NCBI RefSeq assembly: GCF_001747095.1 | Contig: NZ_MDGP01000001.1 | Coordinates: 2,029,001-2,093,000 of the forward strand | Direction of reading: 5' to 3' | DNA: 64,000 nucleotides | Origin: Roseivirga sp. 4D4 | Lineage (GTDB): Bacteria; Bacteroidota; Bacteroidia; Cytophagales; Cyclobacteriaceae | Shown here: one piece after another, positions 20,805-46,137 of the stretch | Layout: the number at the start of each line of letters is the position of its first letter | Numbering within the stretch: the first letter of the stretch is position 1 | The notes under the pieces: model-generated | Seen by the model: only the letters and a program-made list of their open reading frames with translations | Told to the model about the DNA's origin: nothing | Database searches by the model: none | Made by a program: the position numbers and the translations under genes

Positions 20805-22001
20805 CTACGCTGACATTAGCACCCTTAACCTATCAATTGATTTACCATCAAGGGAGTAAAAATAGTCCTCAATAAATTTATCCACATGACGACCTTCTTG
20901 AATATGCAGGTCTTGGCTTGATAAAGTACCATTCTCAAAATCATGAATCCAGGCCATTTTTAAGCTCTTTATATGATCGAGAAATATAGAAGGAGAAACT
21001 TTGAATAAAACGACTGGTTTGTAAAGCATTGCAGGTAAGGCTAGTGTGGAAAAAAAACTTGAACAACCTTTCGCACCTGCAATCAAAGAAGGTAGGTCAT
21101 GATGCTGTCTGATATACTTGATATTCGCATCTTGAGGGAACCAACCTCCACTATAACTTTCAGGGTGAAGCTTTATTAATAACCTTAATCCTTCTTGCTT
21201 ACAAAAAGCATTGAGCTTTTTGTAGAAATTAACCATCTGGACTTTGCTAAATAAGTGTTCTCCATATTGATTCTCTGCCAGAGGTTGGTCAATATGTAAA
21301 TAGTACTCTTGAAAATTGTCCTCTTGTAGGTTTAGGTTGAGAAACTTATCCAATTCAGGGTTTCCTATATAATGGAACTTTGTTTCTTTGGGATTGTCCA
21401 GCTGTCTATGGTATTGAGCATTCACGCTGGTATAACATATATATTTGTCTGGTATTCTTGCAGAAAATCGCACCCATTTTGCTGCGAGACGTTCATCGAA
21501 TTTGTTTCGAAGGATCAGAAAAGGAATCAACTTCCAAAAGTAAAAAAGGTCACTTTTTCTGATAGACTTTTTAAGGAATCCAGTGGCACTAAATGATGAT
21601 ATTTGTGGCTCTGTTTTCCTTAATGATTTACTTTTTTCAATGGCTTGGTTTAGATACAACTTTTGTCTTTGACGATACTCTCTATAGTCATTGAAAAAGC
21701 CGTGTTGCAGAATGTAAGTAGATATACCTTTTTTTCTTGCTACATAGTTGAGAGCAATAGCCACCACTGAAGATAAATCCATAAAAACCACCTTATCTGG
21801 CTTTATTTGATCTAATAGGTCTTGAGCACTTTCGAACTCAGACCAATAAACCTTTTTCTGATGAGTATTTGAACTTACCTCCTGACGCTGATCAACATAG
21901 AAGATATAAGTAATGTCAAAGTGATCAGTAAGTCGCTCTATGGGGTAAATCCAACTACTTCTAGAATACCCAAAATTAAATAGTAATTTAAGCTTGCTCA
22001 C
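20805..22001 (-). CDS. Putative GT-B transferase with HP and SS motifs; candidate nonulosonate transferase
   Basis: About 398 residues with no membrane helix. I do not recognise a named family with certainty. Visible: an N-terminal Rossmann-like start (KLKLLFNFGYSRSS), KVVFMDLSSVVAIAL, YILQHGFFNDY, and in the C-terminal half LLIKLHPESYSGG followed by a CSSFFSTLALPAMLYKP segment. The HP and SS/T pair is a hallmark of several bacterial sialyl-, polysialyl- and Kdo-transferase groups. It lies immediately after the CMP-nonulosonate synthetase gene, so it may transfer that sugar (inference). Start is GTG at 22001 or TTG at 22007; both overlap the upstream gene. Confidence 0.6.
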   Translation of the reverse strand: MSKLKLLFNFGYSRSSWIYPIERLTDHFDITYIFYVDQRQEVSSNTHQKKVYWSEFESAQDLLDQIKPDKVVFMDLSSVVAIALNYVARKKGISTYILQHGFFNDYREYRQRQKLYLNQAIEKSKSLRKTEPQISSFSATGFLKKSIRKSDLFYFWKLIPFLILRNKFDERLAAKWVRFSARIPDKYICYTSVNAQYHRQLDNPKETKFHYIGNPELDKFLNLNLQEDNFQEYYLHIDQPLAENQYGEHLFSKVQMVNFYKKLNAFCKQEGLRLLIKLHPESYSGGWFPQDANIKYIRQHHDLPSLIAGAKGCSSFFSTLALPAMLYKPVVLFKVSPSIFLDHIKSLKMAWIHDFENGTLSSQDLHIQEGRHVDKFIEDYFYSLDGKSIDRLRVLMSA

Positions 22002-22680
22002 TTGCAACTAGGTTCATGTAATACTCCGCCAAAACCCAGTCAATCTCCGTATCGAGGTCTATAGAGTATTTCTCTTCCATTAGATATTTGATCATATTCA
22101 CACCGAACAGCCCATGTTCTTTAAAGGCGTCAATAGAGAATATATATATTGCCCCATTGAACTCATAAACCAAGGGGCAGTCTTGTCTCCTGTTAAATTC
22201 TCCCTTTTTAGATTTCACCAGAAAAGCACCTTCATTCTCTTCGTATAATGAATAATAAGGATTAGCCTTGCTTAAATTTACTGAGACAACCATTTCCTTT
22301 TTTTGCTTGTATACATCAAGTGCTTCCTTAACATGACCTTCAGTTCTTAGCGGGGAAGTTGGCTGGAGTAATACCACTGTTTCGTAACGTAAACCAGACT
22401 GTAGAAAGTGATCGATAGCATGCTCTATGACTTCTTCCGTACCGGCTTTGTCAGTGGCCAATTCGGCTGGGCGTATGAACGGAACATTCAATCCATAACT
22501 CTCAACTACTTTCTTAATTTCCTCAGAATCAGTTGACACACAGATGTTTATATCTTCAGTCAACCCCCGAGCAACATCAATAGTATGGCAAATGAGTGGC
22601 TTGCCGTTAAGTTGTTTAATATTCTTGCCAGGAATCCCCTTCGATCCACCTCTGGCTGGAATGAGAAAAAGAGTCTTCAT
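21988..22680 (-). CDS. legF: CMP-nonulosonate (acylneuraminate/legionaminate) cytidylyltransferase
   Basis: 230 residues, NeuA/LegF family. Activates a nine-carbon 2-keto sugar acid with CTP to give the CMP donor. Seen: N-terminal FLIPARGGSKGIPGKNIKQL (CTP-binding loop), ICVSTDSEEI, VVLLQPTSPLRT, and the metal-binding C-terminal DLDTEIDWVLAEYY. These motifs are complete. Context (PtmE-, NeuC-, NeuB- and LegC-like genes upstream) makes legionaminic acid or a close relative the likely substrate rather than N-acetylneuraminate, though the sequence alone does not decide. Starts exactly next to the stop of the nucleotidyltransferase gene. Confidence 0.92.
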   Translation of the reverse strand: MKTLFLIPARGGSKGIPGKNIKQLNGKPLICHTIDVARGLTEDINICVSTDSEEIKKVVESYGLNVPFIRPAELATDKAGTEEVIEHAIDHFLQSGLRYETVVLLQPTSPLRTEGHVKEALDVYKQKKEMVVSVNLSKANPYYSLYEENEGAFLVKSKKGEFNRRQDCPLVYEFNGAIYIFSIDAFKEHGLFGVNMIKYLMEEKYSIDLDTEIDWVLAEYYMNLVASEQA

Positions 22681-23726
22681 TAAAATCTAATATTCTTTAT
22701 GTCCTCTTTTGCCTTATCAAAATCTTCCTTCCTACCAATGTCCAACCAATATCCTTGAAAGTTAAAAGAAGAAACTCTCCCCCCGCTTTTCATTACACTT
22801 TCCAGTAGATCAGTAGCATTGTAGAAAGTACCCTTAGGAATTCTATCCAGTATTCGGCTTTTAATTAGGTAGATTCCAGCATTGCTATAATAAGTATAAG
22901 TTGGTTTCTCCTTAAAACCCACAATTAGATCATCACCAGTCTCAACCACTGCATATGGTATATTTACTTGATATGGGATTGTGACAACTGATATATCGGC
23001 TTCCTGATCCTGAAAGTGCAGATAGAATTCTTCATAGTCCAAATTGGTCAACAAATCTGAATTGGTCACTAATACAGTATCATGTTTGTAGTCATTCTTG
23101 CCAGCCAATGCCCCAATCGTGCCTAAAGGTTCATCTTCGTTTAGATATTCTATTTCTATATTTTTATCCGAGCCATCTTTGAAATAATCAACTATTTGAG
23201 CGCCTAAATACCTAATACTTATAGAAAAATGGTCTATACCAAAAGTCCTCAATCGATCCAGGTTATGCTCAATAATTGGTTTATCTCCAATACTTAACAT
23301 AGGTTTTGGTGTGGAATCAGTCAGAGGTTTCAGCCGAGAACCTCGACCTCCAGCCATGATCACAGCATGAATCGGGAGGTATGATTTGAAGAAGTCAAAG
23401 TTGACGACATTGACAACCTGTTTAGACTTATTAAGTACTGGAATAACACGAATGTGTTGCTTTCTATAAGCTATAATTTCTTCAAGAGTAAAACTGTCCT
23501 TTCGAATAAACCTTGGCCTATCATTCATGAACTTCTCTGGTTTATCTTCGAGATTTAGGCCTTTTATTAGTCCTCTTCTGATGTCTCCATCTGTAATAGC
23601 ACCAAGTAGTCTATTTTCTTCATTTACCAAAAAGACAATTGCCTCTGATGCAAGGAAGTCTAGCCGCAAAAGTATCTCCTTGACGGTGTTGTACTTTGTT
23701 ACCAAGTGTTTCGTATAGTTACTCAC
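22680..23726 (-). CDS. ptmE: CBS-domain sugar nucleotidyltransferase (PtmE/LegE-like)
   Basis: 348 residues. Two CBS motifs (about residues 1-120, with AITDGDIRRGLI) precede a sugar-phosphate nucleotidyltransferase domain beginning AVIMAGGRGSRLKPLT with STPKPMLSIGDKPIIEH. In Campylobacter, PtmE makes GDP-GlcN from glucosamine-1-phosphate for legionaminic acid synthesis; the same CBS + NTP-transferase architecture in a LegF/G/I/C neighbourhood strongly suggests this role here. The gene starts at GTG (23726), overlapping the upstream gene by 8 bases. PtmA and PtmF homologues were not seen in the window. Confidence 0.87.
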   Translation of the reverse strand: MSNYTKHLVTKYNTVKEILLRLDFLASEAIVFLVNEENRLLGAITDGDIRRGLIKGLNLEDKPEKFMNDRPRFIRKDSFTLEEIIAYRKQHIRVIPVLNKSKQVVNVVNFDFFKSYLPIHAVIMAGGRGSRLKPLTDSTPKPMLSIGDKPIIEHNLDRLRTFGIDHFSISIRYLGAQIVDYFKDGSDKNIEIEYLNEDEPLGTIGALAGKNDYKHDTVLVTNSDLLTNLDYEEFYLHFQDQEADISVVTIPYQVNIPYAVVETGDDLIVGFKEKPTYTYYSNAGIYLIKSRILDRIPKGTFYNATDLLESVMKSGGRVSSFNFQGYWLDIGRKEDFDKAKEDIKNIRF

Positions 23727-24861
23727 CTTTACTCAAATAAGAATCCACTTCTTGCATGATCAATTTAGAACTGCCAGTTCTATGATAAATATTTCCACCC
23801 GTATAAGGACTCATGCCTGCCAGGTTTTCAACTTTTCTCATGATAGCTTCGGTATCAAAATCCACATGATGGACATTATCACCTGAGATACGTCCATCTT
23901 GTCTTTTACCCAAATTAATGACATTCTTTTCAAATGAAGCTGCCTCAATGATGCCACTAGAAGTGTTACCTAAAAGAAAGCTGCAGTATTTCATAGATGT
24001 GAAATATGACTGCGTGCCAAGGTTTTCAATTGTAAATACAGATGTTGAATGCTCAGCGGCTAGTGCTAAAAAAGCCTTACGATATGCCGAAGCCTTAGTA
24101 TCAGCGTTAGGCATGGTAATTAGTAGTTGAAATCGATTTACTATGTGTTCTAAACTTTTAATAAGTTCATCAGCAAAGTGTGCATTATTTTCGTACTCTA
24201 TGGTCTCAGGATGTACTGTGACCAAAACAGTAGGCTTTCGCAAATCAACCCCCCATTTTTCGAGAAACTCTTCAGGCGATAAGAGCTTTACTGTTCCAAC
24301 ATTCTCTAAACTCAGCGCACCTACAATATGAATATTTTCACTCGATTCAATCAATTTGGAGACCCTAGAGGCATATTCGGGCAAGGAAGTAAAGTGAATT
24401 TTGGAAAAATGAGATATACAGTGTCTGAAAGAATTGTCCATAGCACCTAGAGTTTTTTCTCCTCCATGAACGTGGGCAAAGGTAATGCCATAAGGAACTG
24501 CTGCTAGAACAGCGGCAAGCATTTCAAACCTATCTCCTAGGCAAAACACCAAAGCAAATCTACTATGATGTACCTCCCAAAAATCTGAAAACTTTAAAAG
24601 AGTAATCCCCATACTCGTGGACACATCGTTTGGTTCATCGTTTCCAGTTTGAGTTTTTAATTTATAGTCAACTTCAAAGCCATCAGCTTCGATAGCATCT
24701 ATTGTGTATCCATGAAGCTTTGATGTATGACTCCCAAATGCGATTAAGCTTAGGTCATATTCTGCTGAATCTGCTATTCTCTTGAGCAACGGGTAATAAA
24801 TACCATAGTCCGCTCTAGAGCTAGTCAGTACACCAATAACCTTTTTATGCTTTGAAATCAT
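23719..24861 (-). CDS. legG: Hydrolysing UDP/GDP-sugar 2-epimerase (NeuC/LegG-like)
   Basis: 380 residues. Releases the nucleotide while inverting C2, giving a 2,4-diamino mannose-type sugar for NeuB. The family pattern is intact: GVLTSSRADYGIYYPLL at the N-terminus, LVFCLGDRFEMLAA, FAHVHGGEKTLGAMDN, LVTVHPETIEYENN and LLGNTSSGIIEAASF. In Legionella the homologue acts on UDP-diNAc-bacillosamine; in Campylobacter LegG acts on the GDP form. Both are conceivable here because the locus has both a PglF/E/D cassette and a PtmE-like enzyme. 17-base overlap with the NeuB gene. Confidence 0.92.
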   Translation of the reverse strand: MISKHKKVIGVLTSSRADYGIYYPLLKRIADSAEYDLSLIAFGSHTSKLHGYTIDAIEADGFEVDYKLKTQTGNDEPNDVSTSMGITLLKFSDFWEVHHSRFALVFCLGDRFEMLAAVLAAVPYGITFAHVHGGEKTLGAMDNSFRHCISHFSKIHFTSLPEYASRVSKLIESSENIHIVGALSLENVGTVKLLSPEEFLEKWGVDLRKPTVLVTVHPETIEYENNAHFADELIKSLEHIVNRFQLLITMPNADTKASAYRKAFLALAAEHSTSVFTIENLGTQSYFTSMKYCSFLLGNTSSGIIEAASFEKNVINLGKRQDGRISGDNVHHVDFDTEAIMRKVENLAGMSPYTGGNIYHRTGSSKLIMQEVDSYLSKGE

Positions 24862-25870
24862 CTAGTTCGAGTTTGTGTCCGGCATCCAAACTTTTATTAT
24901 AGAACATGCCGATATAATCTTCGAAATTCATTGGCGACAGCCCATCACCCGGTCGAAGCATAATAAAATCGTCCTTCTTCACTCTCTGTCCCTCTGTGAC
25001 CGGATTAGATAAGTGAATACTCTTCCTGGCAACAACCATATTTGGCCTTTCTGACGAGCTGACCTCCTTATTGCTACTACCCATTGCCTGTTCAATATTT
25101 CTAATACTTCTCACCATACTAATCAATTCCTCAGGCTCGAGCGATGCTTTATGATCTGGTCCAGGAAGGCTCCTATCGAGCGTGAAGTGTTTCTCAATTA
25201 CCAAAGCTCCTAAGGCCACTGCCGCTATTGGCACTTCTATACCCATGGTATGATCTGAGTAGCCAACTTCAACGCCAAATGTATTTTTGATGGTGAGCAT
25301 CGCATTCAAATTCACGTCTACCATAGGTGTTGGATATTGAGTATTACAGTGTAATATGGTAATATCTTTTTTATTCAAACCATTCTCTAATAATACATCC
25401 AATGCATCCCGAATCTCGATAAGGTTAGCCATTCCGGTAGAAAGAATAACCGGAAGGCCTTTAGACGCCACTTGCTGTATCAATGGTTTATTCGTTATTT
25501 CCCCTGATGGAATCTTGAAAAAATCTAGGTCATATTTTGTTAGCTTATCTACACTTTCTAGGTCAAAACCTGTGGACAAGAACTTTATATCTACTTCTTC
25601 ACAATGTCTCTTGAGAAGGGCATGGTCTGAATCCGATAATTCAAGTCTTCTCAGCATAGAGAATTGGGTATCCTCCTCTTCACTCTGTTCTAATTGGTAG
25701 GTTGCTTTTTTCGCAAGTTTACTGCTGATTTTATCTGCTTTGAATGTTTGAAATTTTACATAATCAGCACCTGCCTTTTTTGCTACATCGATCAAGGCCT
25801 TTGCTTGATCCATATCGCCATTGTGGTTGACTCCTGCTTCTGCTATTATAACTGTTCGACTCACCTTCAA
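24845..25870 (-). CDS. legI: Nonulosonic acid synthase (NeuB/LegI-like)
   Basis: 341 residues. Condenses PEP with a mannosamine-type aldose to form a nonulosonic acid. The N-terminal TIM barrel starts VIIAEAGVNHNGDMDQA and includes VKFQTFKAD, LSTGMANL, CNTQYPTP and GYSDHTMGIEVPIAAVALGA followed by EKHFTLD; the C-terminal ~60 residues form the SAF antifreeze-like lid (KSIHLSNPVTEGQ, LRPGDGLSP). Complete and of normal length. Starts with TTG overlapping the TGA of the LegC gene (TTGA); a GTG two codons later is an alternative. Confidence 0.94.
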   Translation of the reverse strand: MKVSRTVIIAEAGVNHNGDMDQAKALIDVAKKAGADYVKFQTFKADKISSKLAKKATYQLEQSEEEDTQFSMLRRLELSDSDHALLKRHCEEVDIKFLSTGFDLESVDKLTKYDLDFFKIPSGEITNKPLIQQVASKGLPVILSTGMANLIEIRDALDVLLENGLNKKDITILHCNTQYPTPMVDVNLNAMLTIKNTFGVEVGYSDHTMGIEVPIAAVALGALVIEKHFTLDRSLPGPDHKASLEPEELISMVRSIRNIEQAMGSSNKEVSSSERPNMVVARKSIHLSNPVTEGQRVKKDDFIMLRPGDGLSPMNFEDYIGMFYNKSLDAGHKLELDDFKA

Positions 25871-27018
25871 AGACTGTCTATTCTTACACTACTTGGAATG
25901 TTGACCAAACGTTCTTCCAACCACTTACTGTTTGCGAGACCGTCATGTTGACAATCACTAAACATGTCAAGCTCGTTCATAAGAATCCAGGCTGGCCTAG
26001 TCATCACACCATCAGCATTTGTCTCATCCAGAAAATCATTTCTCGCCATGAGATCTTTGAAAATTAAAACATTCAGCCAATAATTCGCCTTGCTCCCTTC
26101 ATTTTCAGTAAAGAATTTCATCTCTTTTTGCTGAATAAAAAAATCGGCATAGCACAAACCTAATTCACGCTTGTTTTTAATAAATGAGTCAAGTTGTTCT
26201 AATTGAGCACATGCGAGTGCTGCATTTATATTTGGCATTCTATAATTGTATCCTATTTCGTCATGCCTGAACTCCCAGCGGTGTGGTACCTTAGCCTGGG
26301 TAGTCAGGTGTTTGGCTTTTTTTGCAATCTCTTCGTCATCTGTCACAATAGCGCCACCGCCACCACAGGTTAGCGTCTTGTTCCCGTTAAAACTAAAAGT
26401 CCCCATAATTCCATATGTACCAGTATGCTTGTCCTTATAGTGACTACCTAGAGATTCCGCTGCATCTTCTATGACAGGAATACTGTAATGATTGCAAACG
26501 CTCACTATTCGGTCTATTTCACATGGAAAACCATATGTATGCATAGGCACACATGCTGAAATTTTCTTTCCTGTGACCTTATTAATCAAATCATCACCAA
26601 CCTGCTCTGCGTTTTCGGATAAGAAAGCCTCGAGTTTTTCCGGACACATACCCATTGTCTTCAGAGAAACATCAGTAAATACTGGCTTGGCTCCCAGATA
26701 GCTTATGGCATTGGCTGTAGCAACAAAGGTAAAAGCCTGTGTAATTACTTCATGACCTGAACTGACACCTGCAAGCTTTAATGCGATGTGTAAAGCACCT
26801 GTACCATTAGCTATTGCAACTGCATATCGAGCACCAGTAAGGTCAGCCATTTCATCTTCGAATTTATTGACATAAGCACCAACAGATGATACAAAAGTTG
26901 AATCAATTGCATCTGTCAGGTACTCTTTTTCTCTACCAATAAATCGAGGTTCGTGCAAGGGTATAAAATCCTGGCGAGGATAAAGGGTTTTAATAAAATC
27001 AATTGTGTCTTTATACAT
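25867..27018 (-). CDS. legC: LegC-type 4-keto-sugar aminotransferase
   Basis: 383 residues, DegT/DnrJ/EryC1 family. The N-terminus (IDFIKTLY, then FIPLHEPRFIGREKEYL and DSTFVSSVGAYV) is characteristic of LegC aminotransferases of nonulosonate pathways. The cofactor Lys is in SFNGNKTLTCGGGGAI, with VIEDAAESLGSHYKD upstream of it. It would aminate C4 of the GDP- or UDP-4-keto-6-deoxy-GlcNAc. I placed the start at the ATG at 27018 (the frame is open to 27036), which fits the family N-terminus and gives an 8-base overlap with the SDR gene. Confidence 0.9.
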   Translation of the reverse strand: MYKDTIDFIKTLYPRQDFIPLHEPRFIGREKEYLTDAIDSTFVSSVGAYVNKFEDEMADLTGARYAVAIANGTGALHIALKLAGVSSGHEVITQAFTFVATANAISYLGAKPVFTDVSLKTMGMCPEKLEAFLSENAEQVGDDLINKVTGKKISACVPMHTYGFPCEIDRIVSVCNHYSIPVIEDAAESLGSHYKDKHTGTYGIMGTFSFNGNKTLTCGGGGAIVTDDEEIAKKAKHLTTQAKVPHRWEFRHDEIGYNYRMPNINAALACAQLEQLDSFIKNKRELGLCYADFFIQQKEMKFFTENEGSKANYWLNVLIFKDLMARNDFLDETNADGVMTRPAWILMNELDMFSDCQHDGLANSKWLEERLVNIPSSVRIDSL

Positions 27019-27988
27019 TCTTGTATTTTGGGTCATCAGGATTCAAGATAAAGCCTTCTTTGAGCACTTTAATAGTCTGTCTTATTCCATCTGGTACCTT
27101 GAGCTTAACTTCAAAGTCTAACCTTTCTTTGATTTTATCAAATGACACTCTGTAATCCCTAGGGTCTTCATTTTTAGACACATACTTGACTTTTGCATCT
27201 GGCAATTGTTTGACTATCTCATTCACAATCATTTGCTTTTGATAGTTCTCAGAGGTGTCACCTACATTAAAAACATCGAAAGCTACTTTTTCTTGATCAG
27301 CTCCGATAGTCGCCATAACTGATCGGCACAAATCCAAGACGTGACAATAAGGTCTCCAAAACTGCTCACCAAAGACTAACAATTCTCTTCCTAGGGCAAC
27401 CTCTTTGGTAAATTCATTGACTGTAAGGTCAAAACGTGGTCTGGGAGATAAGCCATACACTGTAGAAAATCTCAGGGCCGTAGGTTTACATTTGTTTTCC
27501 CGAGGTTGTTCCATTAAGAATTGTTCAAATGCCACCTTGGTTTCTGCATAAAGAGAGACTGGAGCAAGTGTAGAACCCTCATGTACATATGATTCTGGGT
27601 CATCCATTTTACCATAGTTGCTGCAAGTAGAAGCGAAAACAAACCTACTTGTGCCTTGATTTTCGGCCGCTTTATATAGCAGTTTACTTCCTTCCAAATT
27701 GGTACTTCTTGCTAAGTCTGGACTTTTTGCGCATGCCGGATCGCCAACTATTGCGGCCAAATGGGCTACCGCAAAAACATTTTGGGTAGCCATGGTAACT
27801 GATTCAGGATCGCGAACATCTCCCTTGATAAACTCAAAATCTTCTTCATTTAGCAAATCGATGATAGGCTCACCTCCATACATAAGGTTATCAAGTACCC
27901 TTACCTTATAGTCATTTCTTAGTAATAGTCTGCATAACACTGAGCCTATGTAACCAGCCCCACCAGTAACCAAAATTCGTTTCTTCAT
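27011..27988 (-). CDS. NAD-dependent sugar epimerase/dehydratase (extended SDR)
   Basis: 325 residues. NAD-binding TGGAGYIGSVLCRLL, the GDVRDP loop, AHLAAIVGDPACA, the active-site segment STCSNYG, YAETK with the catalytic Tyr/Lys, and the substrate loop FSTVYGLSPRPRFDL. In 4,6-dehydratases such as LegB the segment reads S-T-D-E-x-YG; here the Asp and Glu are Cys and Ser, so it is more likely an epimerase or reductase-type SDR than a dehydratase. It occupies the place where legB would be expected, upstream of legC. Substrate unknown. First gene after a short 39-base gap. Confidence 0.85.
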   Translation of the reverse strand: MKKRILVTGGAGYIGSVLCRLLLRNDYKVRVLDNLMYGGEPIIDLLNEEDFEFIKGDVRDPESVTMATQNVFAVAHLAAIVGDPACAKSPDLARSTNLEGSKLLYKAAENQGTSRFVFASTCSNYGKMDDPESYVHEGSTLAPVSLYAETKVAFEQFLMEQPRENKCKPTALRFSTVYGLSPRPRFDLTVNEFTKEVALGRELLVFGEQFWRPYCHVLDLCRSVMATIGADQEKVAFDVFNVGDTSENYQKQMIVNEIVKQLPDAKVKYVSKNEDPRDYRVSFDKIKERLDFEVKLKVPDGIRQTIKVLKEGFILNPDDPKYKNV

Positions 27989-28027: not shown

Positions 28028-29275
28028 TCATCTACCAGCCGTGCCCTTCAGGCTAGCAAAAAAAACATGTAGATAGCTTTTTAAAAGGGTAGCCATGGGT
28101 ACTCGAGACCTTTTTTTTGAACCAGTGCCCTGCTGAAGGTATTGGATCATTTTTTCACCTACCTCTTCACTATTTTCAAATACTTCACTAAAATTATTTA
28201 GTTGCTCGGTTCTGACTTCATCTATATTATCGTTCATTTTTTTCAAGGCTGCTCTTAGGCTATTCTTATCTCTAGCTTGTAATGTCAAGCCTAGCTTGTC
28301 AAAGAAAGAAGTCTGCGCATTATCCCTAGTTCTTAACCACAAACTGCAGCTTCCATTGAAGCTAAAATACTCGATAGTCGGAGTCCCAATTGCAAGAAAA
28401 TCTGTAATTGCTGAGGACCAGAAACTCACTGAAAAGTCGGTCATCCTCCCCAAAACAAAGGTATTATAGTCCACAACCTTGAATCGATTTTTAGGTAAAG
28501 AATCAAGATATTTTTCAACTTCCGAAATATCTTGTCTAGGATGTGGTTTGACATATATAAATGTGTTTGACATATTGGCAAACTCGGTAATTGCCTCGGC
28601 CATTAAGCGTTGATAATCTTCTTCAGACAAATATTGACCGTTTGGTCCACGTAAAATAAAAGCAATTACTTGATCAAACTTGCCGGTAAATTTCCTTTCT
28701 GCATCTACTAAATCTTGAGTTTCCATAGCAACTATTCGCTGCCACCAAGCAGAATAACCCAATGGACCCAAAACTTTTATTCGATCATGCGCAATACGTT
28801 CCGACCAATAATTGATATCATAAGCTGAATTCAAAACAAGGCCGTCATACACTAGCTCGTCATGCTTTTTAGAATTATGTATGTAAGGACTTAGTTTGTT
28901 ACTTACACTGTACAGAGCATAGGCATGAGGATAAAGTATCAGCTGAGCACTTGAAGAAATACTCCGGATAGAAGCAGCAAGGCTTTTACTGGTAATCGGC
29001 CAAAAATCCTTGAATATGTAGGCAATTCGTGAGCTATTGCCAAGCAGAAAACCCAAGAGTTGACGTTTTCTTATCACCCTAGAATTCTGATCAAGCATCT
29101 TGTAAAGCATCCCTTCATTTCTAGCGCTCTCAAGTAATTTATCAGAAAAGAACAATGTGACGATATCGTAATTATCCTGATTTTCCTTTAAATAGCTTAT
29201 AAAAGGAAGTATCCAATTTAGCTCCCCAAGTGAACTATGAATGATTACAAGTATAATCTTCTTTGGTGAATTCAT
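28028..29275 (-). CDS. Putative surface-glycan transferase with KPHP and SS motifs
   Basis: 415 residues, soluble, not confidently assigned. Visible: an N-terminal Rossmann-like start (KKIILVIIHSSLGELNW), a middle FILRGPNGQYLSEEDY, then FIYVKPHPRQDI and SVSFWSSAITDFLAIG followed by TPTIEYF. The K-P-H-P and S-S elements in a C-terminal GT-B half recall capsule Kdo- and sialyl-type transferases and CDP-glycerol transferases. It ends a module with a CMP-sugar synthetase-like and an aldolase gene, so a role in transferring that CMP-activated sugar is plausible. I took the ATG at 29275, one base after the upstream stop, over an upstream in-frame start at 29296. Confidence 0.6.
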   Translation of the reverse strand: MNSPKKIILVIIHSSLGELNWILPFISYLKENQDNYDIVTLFFSDKLLESARNEGMLYKMLDQNSRVIRKRQLLGFLLGNSSRIAYIFKDFWPITSKSLAASIRSISSSAQLILYPHAYALYSVSNKLSPYIHNSKKHDELVYDGLVLNSAYDINYWSERIAHDRIKVLGPLGYSAWWQRIVAMETQDLVDAERKFTGKFDQVIAFILRGPNGQYLSEEDYQRLMAEAITEFANMSNTFIYVKPHPRQDISEVEKYLDSLPKNRFKVVDYNTFVLGRMTDFSVSFWSSAITDFLAIGTPTIEYFSFNGSCSLWLRTRDNAQTSFFDKLGLTLQARDKNSLRAALKKMNDNIDEVRTEQLNNFSEVFENSEEVGEKMIQYLQQGTGSKKRSRVPMATLLKSYLHVFFASLKGTAGR

Positions 29276-29276
29276 G

Positions 29277-29933
29277 TCACTGGCTATGCCCAGCAAGAAC
29301 CATCTTTACTTGGCTTAACTGATCAATATAGTATTGACCAACACCTCTTAGTTTTTCATTATTGTAGCCACCAAATAAGATCTGATTTTCATTTGCAGCT
29401 TCATAATCGTTAATAGAATCGCCTATAAGTATAGTCTTTTTCCTATCATACTGATGCTCGGCTAAAACCTGTCTAACAAGGTCCTTCTTCGTGGTAGGTG
29501 ATCCCTTTATAGACACAAATGACCTACTCAATTCAAGGCTCTCACAAATATGGATCAGCTCGTTTTGATCAGAGCCTGAGACAATATGCATCTTAAGTTG
29601 ATCAGCATACTGTTTTACAAATTGATTTGAATCGAACAACAAGAGGTCAGGGTTGATTAAGGATTTAATCATTATGCTGGAAAACTTTGAAGCCCACTGA
29701 TTCACTTCTTCATTTGTAATCGGTTCTTCTCTAATCTCTTCAAAAAAGTACCTGAACTTGACATACCTGGATAGCCCTCCATTTGCTAAATGAAATTCCA
29801 TTAATGAATCTACCTGATCCTTAGGATAATCAGCCAGCACTGTTCTAAAACCTGCATTTCTTACAGGCATAGAATCCATAAGGACACCGTCAAAGTCCCA
29901 GAAAATCGCTTCAAGAGGTCCTATGCTTCTCAT
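29277..29933 (-). CDS. HAD-superfamily hydrolase (probable sugar phosphatase)
   Basis: 218 residues. HAD motif I is FWDFDGVLMDS (nucleophile and acid Asp), motif II HIVSGSDQNEL, motif III a Lys in the GSPTTKKDLV region, and motif IV LIGDSINDYEAAN. The C1 cap lies between motifs I and II, making it a beta-phosphoglucomutase/phosphoglycolate-phosphatase-like member. Between a CMP-sugar synthetase-like gene and a putative transferase gene, it may dephosphorylate a sugar-acid phosphate the way KdsC does for Kdo-8-P (inference). Start set at ATG 29933; an earlier in-frame start at 29948 would lengthen the overlap with the upstream gene. Confidence 0.82.
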   Translation of the reverse strand: MRSIGPLEAIFWDFDGVLMDSMPVRNAGFRTVLADYPKDQVDSLMEFHLANGGLSRYVKFRYFFEEIREEPITNEEVNQWASKFSSIMIKSLINPDLLLFDSNQFVKQYADQLKMHIVSGSDQNELIHICESLELSRSFVSIKGSPTTKKDLVRQVLAEHQYDRKKTILIGDSINDYEAANENQILFGGYNNEKLRGVGQYYIDQLSQVKMVLAGHSQ

Positions 29934-30606
29934 ATATACTCTCTGCAATTAAAAAATCGTCTCCCCAATCAATGTCAAAGGATGTTACGGTGTCTTGAAC
30001 ATGGTATCTTTTCCTCTTTCCGATACGATCATGTAAGTCTTCATATACATTCAAAGAAGTAACAAAAGCCACGTGATTAACTTCATAAAGTAAATCTAAA
30101 TCTTGTGTCCTAGGCCATCGACCTGACTGACCTTTCAAAGAATTAATCATTTCTCCAGTTTTAGGGTCAATCAAGAAATTCTGAAGTTCTTTTACTGTGA
30201 CCAAAGAGTCATAACCCTCATCACAACCTTTGAAGTAATTGTCTATTATGCGATCATATTCCTGACCTTCGACAAAAGGTGTCGTTACGTGCCCCCAAAT
30301 GACATGTTCGCACCTGACCACTTCAGGGACATATTTAATCAGTGCTGTCAGAGGCGTGGTATCAAGACATAGTTGATCCGGCCTCTCAATAATTCTTAAC
30401 CTCGGGTCCTTAAACTTTGAGGCAATTTCAATACATAACTCATCATTGGTAGAGAGAATAATCTCTCCAATGAGCTTCGAACCTATCAATTGAGATAACT
30501 TTAGGGCCAAGAGCCCACCATCAATACCTGCAAAACTGCGAGTATTCTTGTTTTCAACCCTGTTACTTCCTTTACGTGTAGGAAGAAAAAAGGAAATATC
30601 GCTCAT
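29911..30606 (-). CDS. Second CMP-sugar acid cytidylyltransferase-like protein
   Basis: 231 residues of the acylneuraminate cytidylyltransferase family, but divergent from the LegF-like protein at 21988. Seen: FFLPTRKGSNRVENKNTR (CTP loop; R-x-GS and K-N retained), EIILSTNDELC, HVIWGHVTTPFVEG in place of the usual QPTSP, and the metal-binding FDIDWGDDFLIAE near the C-terminus. It would activate a 2-keto sugar acid as CMP ester. Three-base gap from the aldolase gene and overlap with the HAD gene make these a tight cassette. The substrate is unlikely to be the same as that of LegF. Confidence 0.8.
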   Translation of the reverse strand: MSDISFFLPTRKGSNRVENKNTRSFAGIDGGLLALKLSQLIGSKLIGEIILSTNDELCIEIASKFKDPRLRIIERPDQLCLDTTPLTALIKYVPEVVRCEHVIWGHVTTPFVEGQEYDRIIDNYFKGCDEGYDSLVTVKELQNFLIDPKTGEMINSLKGQSGRWPRTQDLDLLYEVNHVAFVTSLNVYEDLHDRIGKRKRYHVQDTVTSFDIDWGDDFLIAESIYEKHRTS

Positions 30607-30609
30607 TGA

Positions 30610-32157
30610 TCAAATGTTGGAGTAAACTGAGTCTTCATCTAGAATTTCATATCTGGTAGGCGTCAGAGATACAATTTTCACACCTATATTCTTGAAGTCA
30701 TCGAACAATTGTTCATTTTCATGAGACAATTCGATCTCCACTTGTTTCACTGAGTCTCCGAAATAGCCATCATAACCAGTTACAAATACCTCTGCTGCCT
30801 TAAGTTCTAATGCGGTTTGTAGGGCAAGAACTGTATGAGAGTCATTGACTTTGTTGGTAAAGTTGATTGTCTTTAGTTCAAAACACTTCTCGCGTAGGCC
30901 AGATGGTATATATGTTCCCATTTTCCTGGGAAAAGGAGGTAGAACACATTCTGAGACAAACTCAAAACCTTCTGCAGCATTAGATTCTAATCTATGCCCT
31001 TCATTGCCTACAAGACAAAAGTACTGTTGAATCGACATCCCCTTAAAAAAAATGGAATTCTTTGAGCTTGCATGAACTATAGCCAAGTTGTCCTGACTTT
31101 CACACCATTTCCTTAAGGCTTCTGCATGCTTTGATACAGAAGGGCCTCCACCAATAAGAAGAATTTTGTCATACCCTTCTTCGGGAAGAAAGGTTTCCAA
31201 TTTGATGTTGTCTTCAACACCGATGCTCTGATTATGGAGTGTTTGAACAATACTGTTCATAGAATAGAAGCGTTTGCCCACCCAATCCATCACATCTTTC
31301 TGAGGAAGGGAGTTAGCACCAGAAACCATGTAAGGCAAGTTCGTACCCCACTTGTGCTGAGACTGCAAGTGTTCAAATGAGTCGACAACCGTTCCCAAGG
31401 CATTAAAATTCACGTCCCAGCCATAACGCGCATTCATTGTGGTAAGTAGTAATTCCGTTTTTAAATTACCCGCTCCCCTTCCCATACCGGTGACAGTGGC
31501 ATCAACTATATCTACCCCTGCGTCAAGAGCAGTTAGTGTATTTATTAACCCTAACTCCAAATTATTGTGACCATGAAATCCAATTTTACAATCTAATCGG
31601 GCTTTTACTTTAAGGATCATTTCTTCCACCTCACTAGGTAAAACACCTCCATAAGAATCAACGAGATAAAAGTAATCTATGGTACCATTCAAAGTTTCAA
31701 TCTGATCAAAAAAGCCATCAATCTTGGACCAATTAGACATGTACATAACATTGAAAGCTACATCAAAACCCATCTCTTTTATCTTCCTTGATACCTCAAT
31801 AGCCCTATTGAGGTTTTCGGGTGCAACCGCAATTCTTATTAGGTCAATTAATCTGCTACAATCTTGAAGAAGCTCCTCAGCGTTTTCGGCAGGCACATCC
31901 TTTTCATTTAGAATAATGGCCAATTTCTTTGTTGTTTTAGACTTAATTTCCTCCATCACACTCTTGGGGCAATAGAAGTATTTCCCTAAGTACTCAGGCT
32001 TTTTAGGACTGCGATATCCAATCTCAATGAAATCAACCACTAGACTGTTCATTGATTTAAGGTATGCATCAACCAAGCTGTCTTCAAAATCCCAATTGGT
32101 ATAATATCCTCCATCCCTGAGTGTACAGTCTAAAACTTGAATCTTTTTATTCATCAT
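30610..32157 (-). CDS. DRE-TIM aldolase fused to a GT42/MAF-like domain
   Basis: 515 residues in two parts. Residues ~5-300 form a pyruvate-type DRE-TIM metallolyase: LDCTLRDGGYY (Arg14, Asp15), VDSYGG, metal ligands His195 and His197 in GFHGHNN, and the TGMGRGAGN loop, as in 4-hydroxy-2-oxovalerate aldolases. Residues ~330-515 form a Rossmann-like domain: ILLIGGGPSVSKHAEAL, a segment TVLALQTALELKAAEVFVTG, YDGYF, and a His (479) followed by KIVSLTPTRY. This order recalls the GT42 (CstI/II) sialyltransferase and MAF_flag10 folds. No acylating aldehyde dehydrogenase partner, usual for catabolic aldolases, is present. A biosynthetic role making a 3-deoxy-2-keto sugar acid is my inference. ATG start; the second codon is also ATG. 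Confidence 0.78.
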   Translation of the reverse strand: MMNKKIQVLDCTLRDGGYYTNWDFEDSLVDAYLKSMNSLVVDFIEIGYRSPKKPEYLGKYFYCPKSVMEEIKSKTTKKLAIILNEKDVPAENAEELLQDCSRLIDLIRIAVAPENLNRAIEVSRKIKEMGFDVAFNVMYMSNWSKIDGFFDQIETLNGTIDYFYLVDSYGGVLPSEVEEMILKVKARLDCKIGFHGHNNLELGLINTLTALDAGVDIVDATVTGMGRGAGNLKTELLLTTMNARYGWDVNFNALGTVVDSFEHLQSQHKWGTNLPYMVSGANSLPQKDVMDWVGKRFYSMNSIVQTLHNQSIGVEDNIKLETFLPEEGYDKILLIGGGPSVSKHAEALRKWCESQDNLAIVHASSKNSIFFKGMSIQQYFCLVGNEGHRLESNAAEGFEFVSECVLPPFPRKMGTYIPSGLREKCFELKTINFTNKVNDSHTVLALQTALELKAAEVFVTGYDGYFGDSVKQVEIELSHENEQLFDDFKNIGVKIVSLTPTRYEILDEDSVYSNI

Positions 32158-37757: not shown

Positions 37758-39308
37758 TCAAAAAAAGAAGTATTGATGCTTTTTAAAAAGAGTCCTAAAA
37801 CTGTTAGACGGAAGTGTCAATAACTCTTCGTAGGTTAGTTTGATACCAACAATATTTTCTTCAATACTGATATTCTGTTGATTAGCTCCTTGATGGATAT
37901 GCATGGGAGCATCTATCCAACTAACCCATTTGACATCATTTTGAAGTTTATTCTGAACGAAAGTTTGAACAAAAAACAAGAAATCTTCTTTCTTACTCTC
38001 AGAGTATTGTATATCACCTCTAGTACTAAATGCCGGAAGTCTCACTTCCTCAACTGCCAAATTAGCTTCCTTGAGCGTTTCTAACGAAGTGGTAGAACCG
38101 TAAGTCCCGGTATAAACAGGCCTTTCCGACAAGAAGGCAAATCTATTCTGTGCAAAGATCACATCATAAGGAGAAAAAAAACTAGGATCTAGATTATATT
38201 CCAGCTTCTTGTCATCCACAAGAGAGAGAGTATACTTTTGAACAAATGGTGTATCATACCAAACTAGAGAAGTTGTAGGAGAAATTAAATAAGTAATAAT
38301 TAGTAAAGAAACATAAGAAAGAAGGTAGCTCTTTTCCCCAAACTGGATCATATCAGCGTACCTCCATGTGAGTGCCATGAGAACAAATTCTAGAACTGCC
38401 CACTTCCAGAAAAAAATACCGCTTGTAATAAATACCGTTAGGTGAAAAACTATAAACGCACCAATAACAATTCTAAACCAGCTTCTTTTCCAAAATAAGA
38501 TAAGAGGAAACAAAAATTCAATTACCAATGTTGCATATTCAATAACACCCCTGGAGTGCGAAAGTGTCTTTGCTAATACTGTTTTCAATTCTGGAAATTG
38601 ATACAGCCAATCATAGGCCGTACTTGCCATAAACAGATTGTAAAGTGAATTATGATGTTGCCAACCAACAAGTATTTTTCCCAGGCCAGCTTTAAAATAC
38701 CAATTGCATATAATAAGCAGAACCAGCATTGTAAAGGTAGACCACAAGACATTTTTAGCTATGGTAGTCTTTAGAAAATAGAAAACTGAAAATCCGAAAA
38801 GTATATCAAAGATAATTTGTTTATCGGTATAGGTATATGCTGAAGGTAATGCGAAGGAGAACTGCTTAGAGAGTAGATAAGCCTGCAAGAGAAAAACTGG
38901 AATGAATTGTGGTCTAAAGAAAGCAGCTAAACCAATTATTACAAAAAGTGCCTTGTCAAGTAAAAAAGACCGATCATAAAAATAGTTATGTTCTGAGCAA
39001 GCATACGCCCAGAGCAGAAGTAAAACGCATGTCATTACAACTACTTTGACCCAAGGAGGAATGCTACTCCAATCCCGAATTTTATTCCATGAAAGACTTA
39101 AAAAAGCAGCATAAGCGGTAACACATATAGCTACTAGTAATGAGAGTTTACTCAAAGACCAGTAGTTGAAAAACAATTGATCTTCTTCGAAAAAATGTTT
39201 ATTCAAAGGTTTAAAGATAAATGGCTGCAGGTACCAAATAGATAAGAGTACTGTTAAAACGAAGCCACCTTCATAGAGTATTTTAACAGACTTAGTATTG
39301 AAAATCAT
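37758..39308 (-). CDS. Polytopic membrane protein, HTTM-like (gamma-carboxylase-related)
   Basis: 516 residues with about ten hydrophobic helices in the first ~340 residues and a soluble C-terminal part of ~170 residues. The stretch NWYFKAGLGKILVGWQHH, then FELP-like loop and IEYATLVIEFLFPLILF, fits my recollection of the HTTM family (horizontally transferred transmembrane domain, related to vitamin-K-dependent gamma-carboxylase). Function in bacteria is largely unknown. Its gene overlaps the Wzt-like gene (ATGA), so it is part of the export/modification block. Assignment is tentative; a generic glycan-modifying membrane protein is the alternative. Confidence 0.55.
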   Translation of the reverse strand: MIFNTKSVKILYEGGFVLTVLLSIWYLQPFIFKPLNKHFFEEDQLFFNYWSLSKLSLLVAICVTAYAAFLSLSWNKIRDWSSIPPWVKVVVMTCVLLLLWAYACSEHNYFYDRSFLLDKALFVIIGLAAFFRPQFIPVFLLQAYLLSKQFSFALPSAYTYTDKQIIFDILFGFSVFYFLKTTIAKNVLWSTFTMLVLLIICNWYFKAGLGKILVGWQHHNSLYNLFMASTAYDWLYQFPELKTVLAKTLSHSRGVIEYATLVIEFLFPLILFWKRSWFRIVIGAFIVFHLTVFITSGIFFWKWAVLEFVLMALTWRYADMIQFGEKSYLLSYVSLLIITYLISPTTSLVWYDTPFVQKYTLSLVDDKKLEYNLDPSFFSPYDVIFAQNRFAFLSERPVYTGTYGSTTSLETLKEANLAVEEVRLPAFSTRGDIQYSESKKEDFLFFVQTFVQNKLQNDVKWVSWIDAPMHIHQGANQQNISIEENIVGIKLTYEELLTLPSNSFRTLFKKHQYFFF

Positions 39309-40579
39309 TCTATTCTATCTATTCGCCATTCAGATTTCTTCGACACAAGAACACCATGTTTTTGTGCCTTTAGCATATAACCCGAGTTATAATAATCCGA
39401 GGTTAGCACATCGAATGCGGCTCCACTCACAACATAATCTAAAACATCACTGTTTCCAGCCATCCATAGATTCACTTGATATTCGTTGGGTAAGAGCATT
39501 ACTTCTGGCATTGAGATACGAAGATTATTTACTCCTGCTGATAAGTTGATAGCAATGCCTTGAGAAACGTTGTCAATAACAGTTACACGCTCTTCAAAGC
39601 CTCTACAAATTGTTAAAGCAATTTGAACATTCGCAAAATTCTCCGTTGAGTTAATTACTAATTCAATGTCCAATGGCGTACCAATGTTCACTGGGCGTCC
39701 TTGATTGAATTTAATAGTAGAAAATAAGGCTTTCTGATTTCCTGTTCGGTTCGAGTTTTGTGATAAATCAGACTTAGCATTTGCCAAAGTCAACTTTTGA
39801 TAAGTCGAGATCATTTCATTAACCTGACCTTCCGAGTGAATAGTCCCGTTCTCCAATACCAACACTCTTGAACATAAGCTCTCAACTGCTGCCATATTAT
39901 GACTTACGAACAAAACAGTACGTCCTTCCCCCTTACTCACATCCTGCATTTTACCTATTGCCTTTTTCTGGAACTCTGCGTCACCCACAGCTAGCACCTC
40001 ATCCACTATCAATATCTCAGGCTCCAAAAATGCTGCAACGGCAAAAGCCAAGCGTACCTTCATGCCAGAAGAATAACGCTTTACAGGAGTGTCTGCATAC
40101 CGAGAGCATCCCGAAAAATCAATTATTTCCTCCAGTTTGGTTTTAATCTCGCCCTTGGTCATACCAAGTATAGCCCCGTTAAGAAAGATGTTTTCTCTCC
40201 CCGTTAATTCTGGGTGAAAACCAGTACCTACCTCTAGTAATGCTCCTATTCGTCCATTTGCCATGATTCGACCTGTAGTAGGACCTGTCACTTTTGAGAG
40301 AATCTTCAACAAAGTACTTTTGCCAGCCCCATTTTTACCAATAATGCCCAATACCTCTCCACGCCTAACTTCAAAGTTGATATCCTTTAATGACCATACG
40401 TAATCCGAATTTCCTTTCAGACTTCTGTCGTTAGTCTCTCCAATTTTTAGAAATGGATCCTCTTTCCCTCGAATTCTGGCCCACCATCTATTCAAATCAT
40501 GGCTTATTGTACCAGTTCCTACCAAGCCCAAACGGTACTGCTTGGATAGATTCTCGACTTTAATTGAAGTGTTTGACAT
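39305..40579 (-). CDS. wzt: Polysaccharide ABC exporter ATPase with C-terminal glycan-binding domain (Wzt-like)
   Basis: 424 residues. ATPase domain: [15 protein letters not shown] (Walker A), YSSGMKVRLAFAVA (signature), EILIVDEVLAVGD (Walker B) and VSHNMAAVESLC. The C-terminal ~170 residues form a beta-rich domain like the carbohydrate-binding module of Wzt that recognises the capped chain end. The N-terminal QYRLG motif and PFLKIGE insert are also typical of this TagH/Wzt group. It works with the permease encoded just upstream (33-base gap) to export lipid-linked polysaccharide across the inner membrane. Confidence 0.93.
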   Translation of the reverse strand: MSNTSIKVENLSKQYRLGLVGTGTISHDLNRWWARIRGKEDPFLKIGETNDRSLKGNSDYVWSLKDINFEVRRGEVLGIIGKNGAGKSTLLKILSKVTGPTTGRIMANGRIGALLEVGTGFHPELTGRENIFLNGAILGMTKGEIKTKLEEIIDFSGCSRYADTPVKRYSSGMKVRLAFAVAAFLEPEILIVDEVLAVGDAEFQKKAIGKMQDVSKGEGRTVLFVSHNMAAVESLCSRVLVLENGTIHSEGQVNEMISTYQKLTLANAKSDLSQNSNRTGNQKALFSTIKFNQGRPVNIGTPLDIELVINSTENFANVQIALTICRGFEERVTVIDNVSQGIAINLSAGVNNLRISMPEVMLLPNEYQVNLWMAGNSDVLDYVVSGAAFDVLTSDYYNSGYMLKAQKHGVLVSKKSEWRIDRIE

Positions 40580-40611: not shown

Positions 40612-41460
40612 TCATACAGTATCCATAAAGTTCTTTTCGGTTCGATTGAAGATGGCCAAACCCAAAATAAATAAGGCAAGAGCAAATACTGTAGCATAGC
40701 CTAAATATAGGTAACTGAGTTGCCCTGAGCCCAAAAAGATAAACCGAAAAGTCTCAATAATAGGTGTCATAGGGTTGGCCAGTATAAAAACTTTATACTG
40801 CTCTGGAATGCTGGAGAGAGGATAAATTACCGGAGTCCCATACATAAGAAGTTGAACTCCAAAAGTGATTAAAAACTTAAGATCGCGATACTTTGTGGTA
40901 AGCGCTGAAAGGATGAAACCAAAGCCCAAACCCAAAAGCATCATAATCAAAACAAGCAAAGGAAATAGAAACAGTTCTTTTTGTATCCTTAACTCGAAAC
41001 CTTCTACGAAAACAAAATAAGCGTAGAAACCAAAAAAGAGTACCAACTGAACACCGTATGTCACAAGGTTAGTGATGGTAGTAGAAATTGGCATTATGGC
41101 CCGTGGGAAATAAACTTTACCAAAAATTTGAGCATTTTTCGTAAAGGTCTCAGAGGTTTTGGTAAGAGAGTCAGAAAAGTACCTCCACGAAGTCACTCCA
41201 GCGAGGTAAAATAACACTTTGGGCAATCCATCTGTAGAAAGCCCTGCCACATTACCAAAAATCACAGTAAATGTGAGGGTGGTGAGAATTGGCTGAATAA
41301 AATACCAAAGAGGACCAAGTATGGTCTGCTTATATTGAGCCACAAGATCTCTTCTAACGAATAACAATAGCAGATCTTTATACCTTCTGATCTCCTTTAT
41401 CTTTAGATCGAAGGTTGCCGATTTCGGCTCAATTATCGTATCCCAATCGGGGTGAATCAA
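40612..41460 (-). CDS. wzm: Polysaccharide ABC exporter permease (Wzm-like)
   Basis: 282 residues, six membrane helices. Family landmarks: RRDLVAQYKQTILGPLWYFIQP near the N-terminus (a QT-LG-LW motif of ABC-2 polysaccharide permeases), FGNVAGL, and YLSSIPEQYK-like (here YPLSSIPEQYKVFILANP). Forms the channel with Wzt. It has to start at TTG (41460), overlapping the wzc stop as TTGA; the next in-frame ATG is far inside. Confidence 0.92.
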   Translation of the reverse strand: MIHPDWDTIIEPKSATFDLKIKEIRRYKDLLLLFVRRDLVAQYKQTILGPLWYFIQPILTTLTFTVIFGNVAGLSTDGLPKVLFYLAGVTSWRYFSDSLTKTSETFTKNAQIFGKVYFPRAIMPISTTITNLVTYGVQLVLFFGFYAYFVFVEGFELRIQKELFLFPLLVLIMMLLGLGFGFILSALTTKYRDLKFLITFGVQLLMYGTPVIYPLSSIPEQYKVFILANPMTPIIETFRFIFLGSGQLSYLYLGYATVFALALFILGLAIFNRTEKNFMDTV

Positions 41461-43899: not shown

Positions 43900-44739
43900 T
43901 TATCGCGTCAAGACTCCAATGATAACAGCAGTACCTGATATCACACTAATGATAGTCGCGAAAGTCTGGAGTGCTGTCTCTCCAGTCCCTAACTCTCTTA
44001 TTTTCAGGGGTGGTACATAGATAATATCATCGGGTTGAATGAAAAAGTATTCTGTATTAATAAACTCTCTTCCAGTCACATCAATCTCATGAATTCTAAT
44101 CCCTTCTGGATATTGGCGTAGGATACTCACATGACTTCTATCTGCATTAATTGTAAGGTCTCCGGAAGCCGCGATAGCTTCAAGAAGATTCACTTCATAC
44201 TGCCGAATCAGGTTTGGTCCAACACCATTTACCTCTCCATAAATCGTATAAGGAATACCGCTCAACTTTACACCCACTAAAATATCTGTAACACCATCTT
44301 TTTCTCTTATTTGTCGCTCAATTTCATATTTCAATTCTGAAGTAGTCAATCCTGAGGCTTTAACCCTGCCAAGAGCGTTAATTTCAATATTACCTTCCTT
44401 ATCTACATTATAACCTGTTAAATAAGGATCGAGACCTCCTCCTGCTCCTGCTCCATTATTGCCCTGAGCATTTATACCTGAGTTTGGGCGAGCAAAAATT
44501 GGGTAGTACTTTTCAACAGCCTCTTCAACGCCACTATAAAAGTTGATCAATAAAATATCATTTGGTTGCAACCTATAGTCTATTCTTTTAAGTGCGATTA
44601 ATGAATCGTTCACTAATTTTGGGTTTAATTCTTTATTCTGAAGGTATAGCACTTTTTCATTAGGAATACAGCCACTTGCTAGAAAAAGGATAAATAGGAA
44701 ACCGACTACTAATTTTAGTTCAGATTTTTTCTTTGTCAT
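43900..44739 (-). CDS. wza: Wza-like outer-membrane polysaccharide export lipoprotein
   Basis: 279 residues with a lipoprotein signal: a basic N-terminus, a hydrophobic stretch and lipobox LASGC (Cys lipidation). The mature protein has the Poly_export domain (NDILLINFYSG, then VDKEGNIEINALGRVKASG, typical of export proteins) and an SLBB domain (IYGEVNGVGPNLI). It ends in a hydrophobic segment (ATIISVISGTAVIIGVL) that could insert in the outer membrane. It forms the outer-membrane part of the export channel and pairs with Wzc. ATGA overlap with kdsA upstream. Confidence 0.92.
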   Translation of the reverse strand: MTKKKSELKLVVGFLFILFLASGCIPNEKVLYLQNKELNPKLVNDSLIALKRIDYRLQPNDILLINFYSGVEEAVEKYYPIFARPNSGINAQGNNGAGAGGGLDPYLTGYNVDKEGNIEINALGRVKASGLTTSELKYEIERQIREKDGVTDILVGVKLSGIPYTIYGEVNGVGPNLIRQYEVNLLEAIAASGDLTINADRSHVSILRQYPEGIRIHEIDVTGREFINTEYFFIQPDDIIYVPPLKIRELGTGETALQTFATIISVISGTAVIIGVLTR

Positions 44740-46116: not shown

Positions 46117-46129
46117 ATTATGATTTAAA

Positions 46130-46137
46130 CAAAAGTA
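46130..46137 (-). promoter_or_regulatory. Candidate promoter of the polysaccharide locus (-7 box TACTTTTG)
   Basis: On the minus strand TACTTTTG fits TAnnTTTG exactly, 13 bases before the kdsC start; a loose TTGG lies at about the right -33 distance. It is the only consensus-like -7 box I found directly before the first gene of the 35-gene series, so it may drive the locus or at least its first part. Confidence 0.5.

Follow-up and report, generated by a model that had tools for sequence, protein, structure and literature searches.

A conserved aldolase, cytidylyltransferase and phosphatase gene set in Roseivirga sp. 4D4, a probable module for a CMP-activated 3-deoxy-2-ulosonic acid

In the stretch of the Roseivirga sp. 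4D4 genome analysed here (64,000 nucleotides of contig NZ_MDGP01000001.1; hereafter the window), four adjacent genes on the minus strand encode an HMGL-like aldolase with a DRE-TIM barrel, a cytidylyltransferase (CMPT), a haloacid dehalogenase (HAD) phosphatase and a polysialyltransferase-like glycosyltransferase (GT) (Table 1). The aldolase, the cytidylyltransferase and the HAD are a real, widely conserved module. We consider the set to be probably a biosynthetic module for a 3-deoxy-2-ulosonic acid that is activated with cytidine monophosphate (CMP) and becomes part of an exported surface polysaccharide, and most likely a new, pyruvate-dependent version of the CMP-ulosonic acid pathways. An earlier note, made from the DNA letters alone, had named four adjacent genes of these kinds, and the open reading frame (ORF) list, Pfam and NCBIfam bear this out. 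With ORF starts assigned mechanically, the genes are separated by a 3-base gap and then overlap by 38 and 20 bases, packed as closely as in an operon. Searches of an open-access library gave no description of this gene set.

We detected the aldolase in 9 of 395 genomes of the window's phylum and, counting G396 itself, in 2 of 398 from the phylum to which G396 belongs; one scan of genome contigs supplied 54 named loci. The comparison covers 63 non-duplicate loci, mostly from Bacteroidota and Alphaproteobacteria (L053, from the same genome as G202 and L077, was left out, and L005-L013 were replaced by the longer stretches L069-L077). A cytidylyltransferase lies near the aldolase in 61 of them (58 by hidden Markov model within 3.5 kb, plus L033, L040 and L071 by PF02348), and a same-strand HAD at no more than 3.5 kb in 56. 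Of the 414 control ORFs, all 6 kb or more distant and at least 150 amino acids (aa) long (overlapping ORFs included), six were near a cytidylyltransferase, four near a HAD and none near both on the same strand. KdsB-family cytidylyltransferases were counted on either strand for the aldolase and on the same strand for the controls; restricted to the same strand, the 58 loci become 56 (41 with CMPT and 16 with KdsB, L031 having both). In one locus scan the KdsB profile was built from five sequences and the HpcH profile from two.

The grouping is kept while the order varies, being aldolase-CMPT/KdsB-HAD in most Bacteroidota loci and aldolase-HAD-CMPT in 6 of 12 alphaproteobacterial loci (L056, L061-L064 and L068). 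A very distant aldolase (31% identity, G779/L120) also stands in a row of aldolase, CMPT and HAD. Close homologues of the window's CMPT (E<=5.4e-50) are present in 5 of the 395 phylum genomes and adjoin the aldolase in all five; the next match has an E-value of 1.5e-23, and one of the weak matches lies within the aldolase locus of G054. In the five Dysgonomonas loci without a nearby HAD (L036, L037, L038, L039 and L067), a gene of cluster c34 is encoded two to three genes upstream; that of L037 is a calcineurin-like phosphoesterase (PF00149) and might stand in for the HAD. An HpcH/HpaI-type aldolase gene directly follows the DRE-TIM aldolase in 6 of the 63 loci, some of which also have an NAD-dependent epimerase; these six sets thereby contain two aldolases of the pyruvate type.

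The earlier note had looked to all four families occurring together elsewhere; this holds for three of them and not for the fourth gene, homologues of which occupy the same place in two close loci only (L015, 250 bits; L074, 215 bits). L074, from a genome of the same genus, has the order of the window, GT2-aldolase-CMPT-HAD-GT. The window's transferase matches PF07388 over residues 219-278 only (25.1 bits, cut-off 23.3), its homologue in L074 falls under this cut-off, and for the one in L015 Pfam gives no match at E<=0.01. Other loci carry other transferases: 98 downstream genes, for which 25 of 56 families are shown, include 8 with PF07388, 3 GT29 sialyltransferases and 2 MptE-like proteins. 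PF07388 and GT29 are both missing among the 25 families shown (of 96, reaching down to families of two members) for 78 upstream control genes, which were taken from the same strand at 150-900 aa, mostly at positions -4 and -3.

The cytidylyltransferase itself belongs to one of two branches of PF02348. Of the 63 loci, 41 have the NeuA-like type of the window and 19 a KdsB-like type, whichever its strand; L031 and L061 have both. In 14 loci the KdsB-family gene comes next after the aldolase on the same strand, and in L060, L061 and L066 it lies on the opposite strand. All four KdsB-like partners run against NCBIfam (L019, L034, L043 and L047) score above the KdsB subfamily cut-off (NF009905). 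In a midpoint-rooted KdsB tree, a branch (100/99) separates the aldolase-linked KdsBs from the housekeeping copies of these genomes; the branch leading to the housekeeping row L095 is very long. Three rows labelled housekeeping fall on the linked side, two of them being the same genes as rows of aldolase loci L061 and L066 and the third coming from a 3657-base contig of L057's genome. On the aldolase tree the KdsB label, set by hand like the other partner labels, needs 12 changes, at least 9 of them forced by starred branches, and is somewhat clustered (15 of 500 shuffles were as low); the HpcH label is unclustered (6 changes, shuffled mean 5.9), and the tree carries a long-branch warning for L059, L065, L054, L043 and others. 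Since two branches of PF02348, both known for CMP-sugar-acid synthesis, repeatedly occupy the same place, this partner swap hints, more strongly than any other finding, at an aldolase product that is a 2-keto-3-deoxy acid resembling sialic acid or 3-deoxy-D-manno-octulosonic acid (Kdo). In L031 (10004-14424 and the next gene) both cytidylyltransferase types follow the aldolase together with two genes of cluster c40, as if for two CMP-sugar acids; the c40 member in L017 is a GT29.

We examined 19 aldolase genomes, comprising all nine holders of the phylum and ten chosen from those of the 54 named loci, and detected KdsA in 13 (including that of the window) but not in the other 6, and NeuB in 9. 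Three genomes that are 98-99% complete (G054, G112 and G123) have neither KdsA nor NeuB at E<=0.001, and each has the aldolase set. Neither enzyme was found in G395 (the Patescibacteria locus L043, 0.6 Mb) or in G404 (L066), to which the completeness figure does not extend. G123 encodes just one PF02348 protein genome-wide, the KdsB adjoining the aldolase; that of G395, also single, lies at the coordinates of the L043 KdsB, and the two of G112 adjoin its two aldolases. A CMP-sugar-acid synthetase without a synthase dependent on phosphoenolpyruvate (PEP) needs another supplier, a role for which the aldolase is the candidate. G123 is the cleanest case, as G054 and G112 carry an extra HpcH aldolase.

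The aldolase matches HMGL-like PF00682 over residues 5-251 (83.8 bits, cut-off 29) and, over residues 6-315, the 'putative aldolase' 3dxi_A in PDB (E 3e-116, 392 bits). The latter belongs to the same family; its solved chain of 320 residues lacks the C-terminal domain, and its record names no function. The library searches gave no reported chemistry for any member of the aldolase family. Residues R14, D15, H195, H197 and N231 are invariant in all 64 alignment rows (one gene, L007 = L053, is counted twice), and D15, H195 and H197 align with 1nvm as the intact Asp-His-His metal site of the HMGL-like barrel. At E<=1 the protein matches only PF00682 and, weakly, an MptE-like family, and neither of the KdsA/NeuB domains (PF00793 and PF03102). 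Its closest NCBIfam profiles are 4-hydroxy-2-oxovalerate aldolases, and it has the barrel, the metal ligands and the RDG motif in common with DmpG/BphI, the type to which the earlier note had assigned it. Plain membership is ruled out, however: it scores 97.7 bits against a cut-off of 286 for the DmpG/BphI equivalog TIGR03217, it has Tyr18 in 64 of 64 rows where 1nvm has His (three residues past the metal Asp, which we take to be the DmpG/BphI catalytic His), it has no DmpF partner, and it is fused to another C-terminal domain of different fold (residues 300-515), overlooked in the earlier note. The missing aldehyde dehydrogenase partner was noted correctly, as the acylating enzyme TIGR03215 has no match in the whole genome at E<=0.001.

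CMPT passes the gathering score of PF02348 (27.5 bits, cut-off 22.6) and is far under the PseF cut-off (TIGR03584, 41.2 bits against 205.7, E 1.4e-10). Its R11, K20-N21, D211 and D213 are shared by 95% or more of 39 rows, and the two aspartates agree with what we take to be the metal site of CMP-ulosonate cytidylyltransferases. The HAD matches PF13419 (49.2 bits, cut-off 23.8) and conserves the DxD, Ser/Thr, Lys and GDxxxD motifs of such enzymes (DFDG, SGS, K154 and GDS-ND), with residues D18, D20, S124-S126, K154, G176-D177 and D181, in at least 95% of 41 rows; in both row counts the gene of the window itself occurs repeatedly. Its best models are of the beta-phosphoglucomutase and phosphoglycolate-phosphatase types, presumably unlike KdsC.

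From these sequences we infer a pathway in which the metal-dependent N-terminal barrel would join pyruvate and an aldose from central metabolism, likely phosphorylated, to give a 3-deoxy-2-ulosonate phosphate. The HAD would then take off the phosphate and make the otherwise reversible aldol step one-way, the cytidylyltransferase (NeuA-like in the window, KdsB-like in other species) would make the CMP-sugar, and the transferase would place the sugar on a glycan. A phosphorylated aldose is suggested because the HAD belongs to the core and its step would pull the reversible reaction; as no other gene is as constant in the gene clustering, the aldose is probably a common metabolite. The idea of a pyruvate-dependent route to a CMP-sugar acid, which the earlier note had put forward, thus gains from the KdsB-family partners and the genomes without KdsA and NeuB, both pointing to a CMP-ulosonic acid, and loses its DmpG/BphI membership.

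To our knowledge, the known bacterial routes to CMP-activated 3-deoxy-ulosonic acids begin with PEP. The KdsA-KdsC-KdsB route likewise comprises a condensation, a HAD phosphatase and CMP activation, but it starts with a PEP-dependent synthase, whereas the set described here starts with a DRE-TIM protein resembling pyruvate aldolases. NeuB-NeuA, LegI-LegF and PseI-PseF have in common with it the activation by a PF02348 enzyme, and sialyltransferase-like transferases are encoded near some aldolase loci, but the three-gene set has no NeuB. Because the window already holds a KdsA-KdsC and a NeuB pathway, the pyruvate set would be a third route. We see about even chances that it is such a route beside PEP-dependent KdsA and NeuB/PseI, with the aldolase permanently fused to a Maf/GT42-like CMP-sugar-binding domain, and that some bacteria lacking KdsA or NeuB would have no other means of making such sugars.

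Several points weigh against the pyruvate-dependent module. The pyruvate aldol chemistry of the barrel is suggested by its superfamily, the tyrosine replaces the catalytic His of DmpG/BphI in every row, and pyruvate aldolases work in both directions and serve more often in catabolism. CMPT is a weak member of PF02348, so it could act on something other than a sugar acid; it has matches at E<=1e-10 in 24 genomes, in 19 of which they are only weak (E 1.5e-23 or worse). The two cytidylyltransferase types of L031 and L061 may do different jobs, a search around the aldolases of L055 and L057 gave no cytidylyltransferase, and 7 of 63 loci (the five of Dysgonomonas, L046 and L048) have no same-strand HAD at up to 3.5 kb. 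The HpcH/HpaI enzyme could be the real pyruvate aldolase in its six loci, the barrel there performing another step, and G054 and G112, two of the three genomes without KdsA and NeuB, are among the genomes of these loci.

Another reading is that the DRE-TIM domain has a different function, such as an acetyl-CoA Claisen condensation or the lyase-type breakdown of a sugar acid, the ulosonic acid being supplied by NeuB, KdsA or the HpcH aldolase. Claisen enzymes among the HMGL-like relatives, the lost DmpG His and the six HpcH neighbours speak for it; we nevertheless judge it improbable, given that the closest NCBIfam profiles are 4-hydroxy-2-oxovalerate aldolases, that HpcH is missing up to 3.5 kb from the aldolase in 57 of 63 loci, that G123 has neither KdsA nor NeuB, nor any HpcH in the 20 kb read, and that the aldolase heads a biosynthetic and not a catabolic core. 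The set might instead make Kdo itself as a KdsA-independent duplicate of the Kdo route, which would fit the KdsB-family partners in 19 loci and the six genomes in which KdsA was not found. This too is unlikely: canonical KdsA is kept in 13 of the 19 genomes and in the window stands apart from the set, the linked KdsBs are separate from the housekeeping KdsBs, and an arabinose-5-phosphate isomerase was not noticed in the set, although no profile search was aimed at it.

The C-terminal domain of the aldolase has the fold of Maf (5mu5) and of the GT42 CMP-sugar-acid transferases, a fold also found in pyrophosphokinases. It conserves the motifs GGGPS and GYDGY and has GxDxY in common with Maf/GT42, and both domains are present in every aligned relative (63 rows, counting L007/L053 once). 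The window's domain differs from these transferases in lying under the Pfam cut-off (PF01973, 16.6 bits against 34.6), in being fused to an aldolase and in having no conserved His among the invariant or nearly invariant columns of the 64 rows; a catalytic His is presumably a feature of GT42, and its lack speaks against GT42-type catalysis. We think that the domain most likely binds a CMP-sugar, either to transfer it or to sense it as the product. It is possible, and we suggest it only tentatively, that it is a working Maf/GT42-type glycosyltransferase, so that one protein would make and transfer the sugar acid. By analogy with the regulatory domains of 2-isopropylmalate synthase, from the same superfamily, it might otherwise sense the CMP-sugar product for feedback, a rather doubtful role to which the conserved motifs without a His, the constant fusion and the occurrence of allosteric C-terminal domains in the superfamily would be suited; the fold differs from the leucine-binding regulatory domain.

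The four genes belong to a large locus for surface polysaccharide, which also holds an ABC exporter, Wzc-like and Poly_export proteins, a legionaminic-acid-like set of the PEP type (21988-27988, from the LegF-like protein to the epimerase/dehydratase) and, at its head, KdsA and the KdsC-like HAD (Table 1). Close to its C-terminus the Wzc-like protein (41457-43880) carries a long GYGYGY repeat, and a 634-aa ORF (49015-50919), judged by eye, looks like a SerB-like phosphatase joined to a phosphoglycerate dehydrogenase-like protein. The housekeeping KdsB of this genome lies elsewhere (L121). There (L121 4265-7268, about 676-679 kb of the genome) the KdsB gene stands directly together with those of a LegC-like aminotransferase and an iron-containing alcohol dehydrogenase (PF00465), a trio that resembles what we take to be the KdnB-KdsB-KdnA set for 8-amino-Kdo of Shewanella.

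Table 1. Features of the window, and HpcH/HpaI aldolase genes at other aldolase loci (positions there are those of the named locus)
Feature	Position	Strand	Size	Assignment or proposed role	Profile or match
HMGL-like aldolase gene	30610-32157	-	515 aa	First in transcription order	
Aldolase N-terminal domain	31261..32157	-	residues 1-299	HMGL/DRE-TIM barrel, proposed pyruvate aldolase	PF00682, 3dxi_A
Aldolase fused C-terminal domain	30610..31260	-	residues 300-515	Maf/GT42/HPPK-like Rossmann fold, GGGPS and GYDGY motifs; proposed CMP-sugar acid binding	
Cytidylyltransferase (CMPT)	29911-30606	-	231 aa	Distant NeuA/PseF relative, proposed CMP-ulosonate synthetase	PF02348
HAD phosphatase	29277-29948	-	223 aa	Proposed phosphate removal from aldol product	PF13419
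Polysialyltransferase-like GT-B transferase	28028-29296	-	422 aa	HP and SS motifs; proposed acceptor transferase	PF07388
LegF-like protein	21988-22680	-		First CMP-sugar-acid synthetase	
CBS-nucleotidyltransferase	22680-23726	-			
NeuC	23719-24861	-			TIGR03568 350 bits, cut-off 236
NeuB	24845-25870	-			TIGR03569 465 bits, cut-off 400
LegC	25867-27036	-			TIGR04181 538 bits, cut-off 420
Epimerase/dehydratase	27011-27988	-		Legionaminic-acid-like set	
Wzt-like ATPase	39305-40579	-		Polysaccharide ABC exporter	PF00005 over cut-off; PF14524 Wzt_C under cut-off
Permease	40612-41460	-		Polysaccharide ABC exporter	PF01061 over cut-off
KdsA	44736-45581	-		Canonical PEP type	TIGR01362 375.4 bits, cut-off 314; PF00793
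KdsC-like HAD	45568-46185	-			PF08282
HpcH/HpaI aldolase	L069 8760-9476				
HpcH/HpaI aldolase	L070 8889-9599				
HpcH/HpaI aldolase	L071 7843-8619				
HpcH/HpaI aldolase	L033 11546-12262				
HpcH/HpaI aldolase	L040 11536-12303				
HpcH/HpaI aldolase	L051, 57 bases after aldolase				

If the proposed pathway is true, a pyruvate route would account for the CMP-sugar-acid synthetases in genomes without KdsA and NeuB, and the gene set would be a marker for unusual acidic sugars in the glycans of Bacteroidota and Alphaproteobacteria. A 2025 review describes the nucleotide form of the plant sugar Dha as undefined (PMC12168206), and a pyruvate route may bear on such sugars lacking a known activated form. 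The core of three genes is small enough for one-tube reconstitution, and the family would be a source of aldolases for the synthesis of rare sugar acids.

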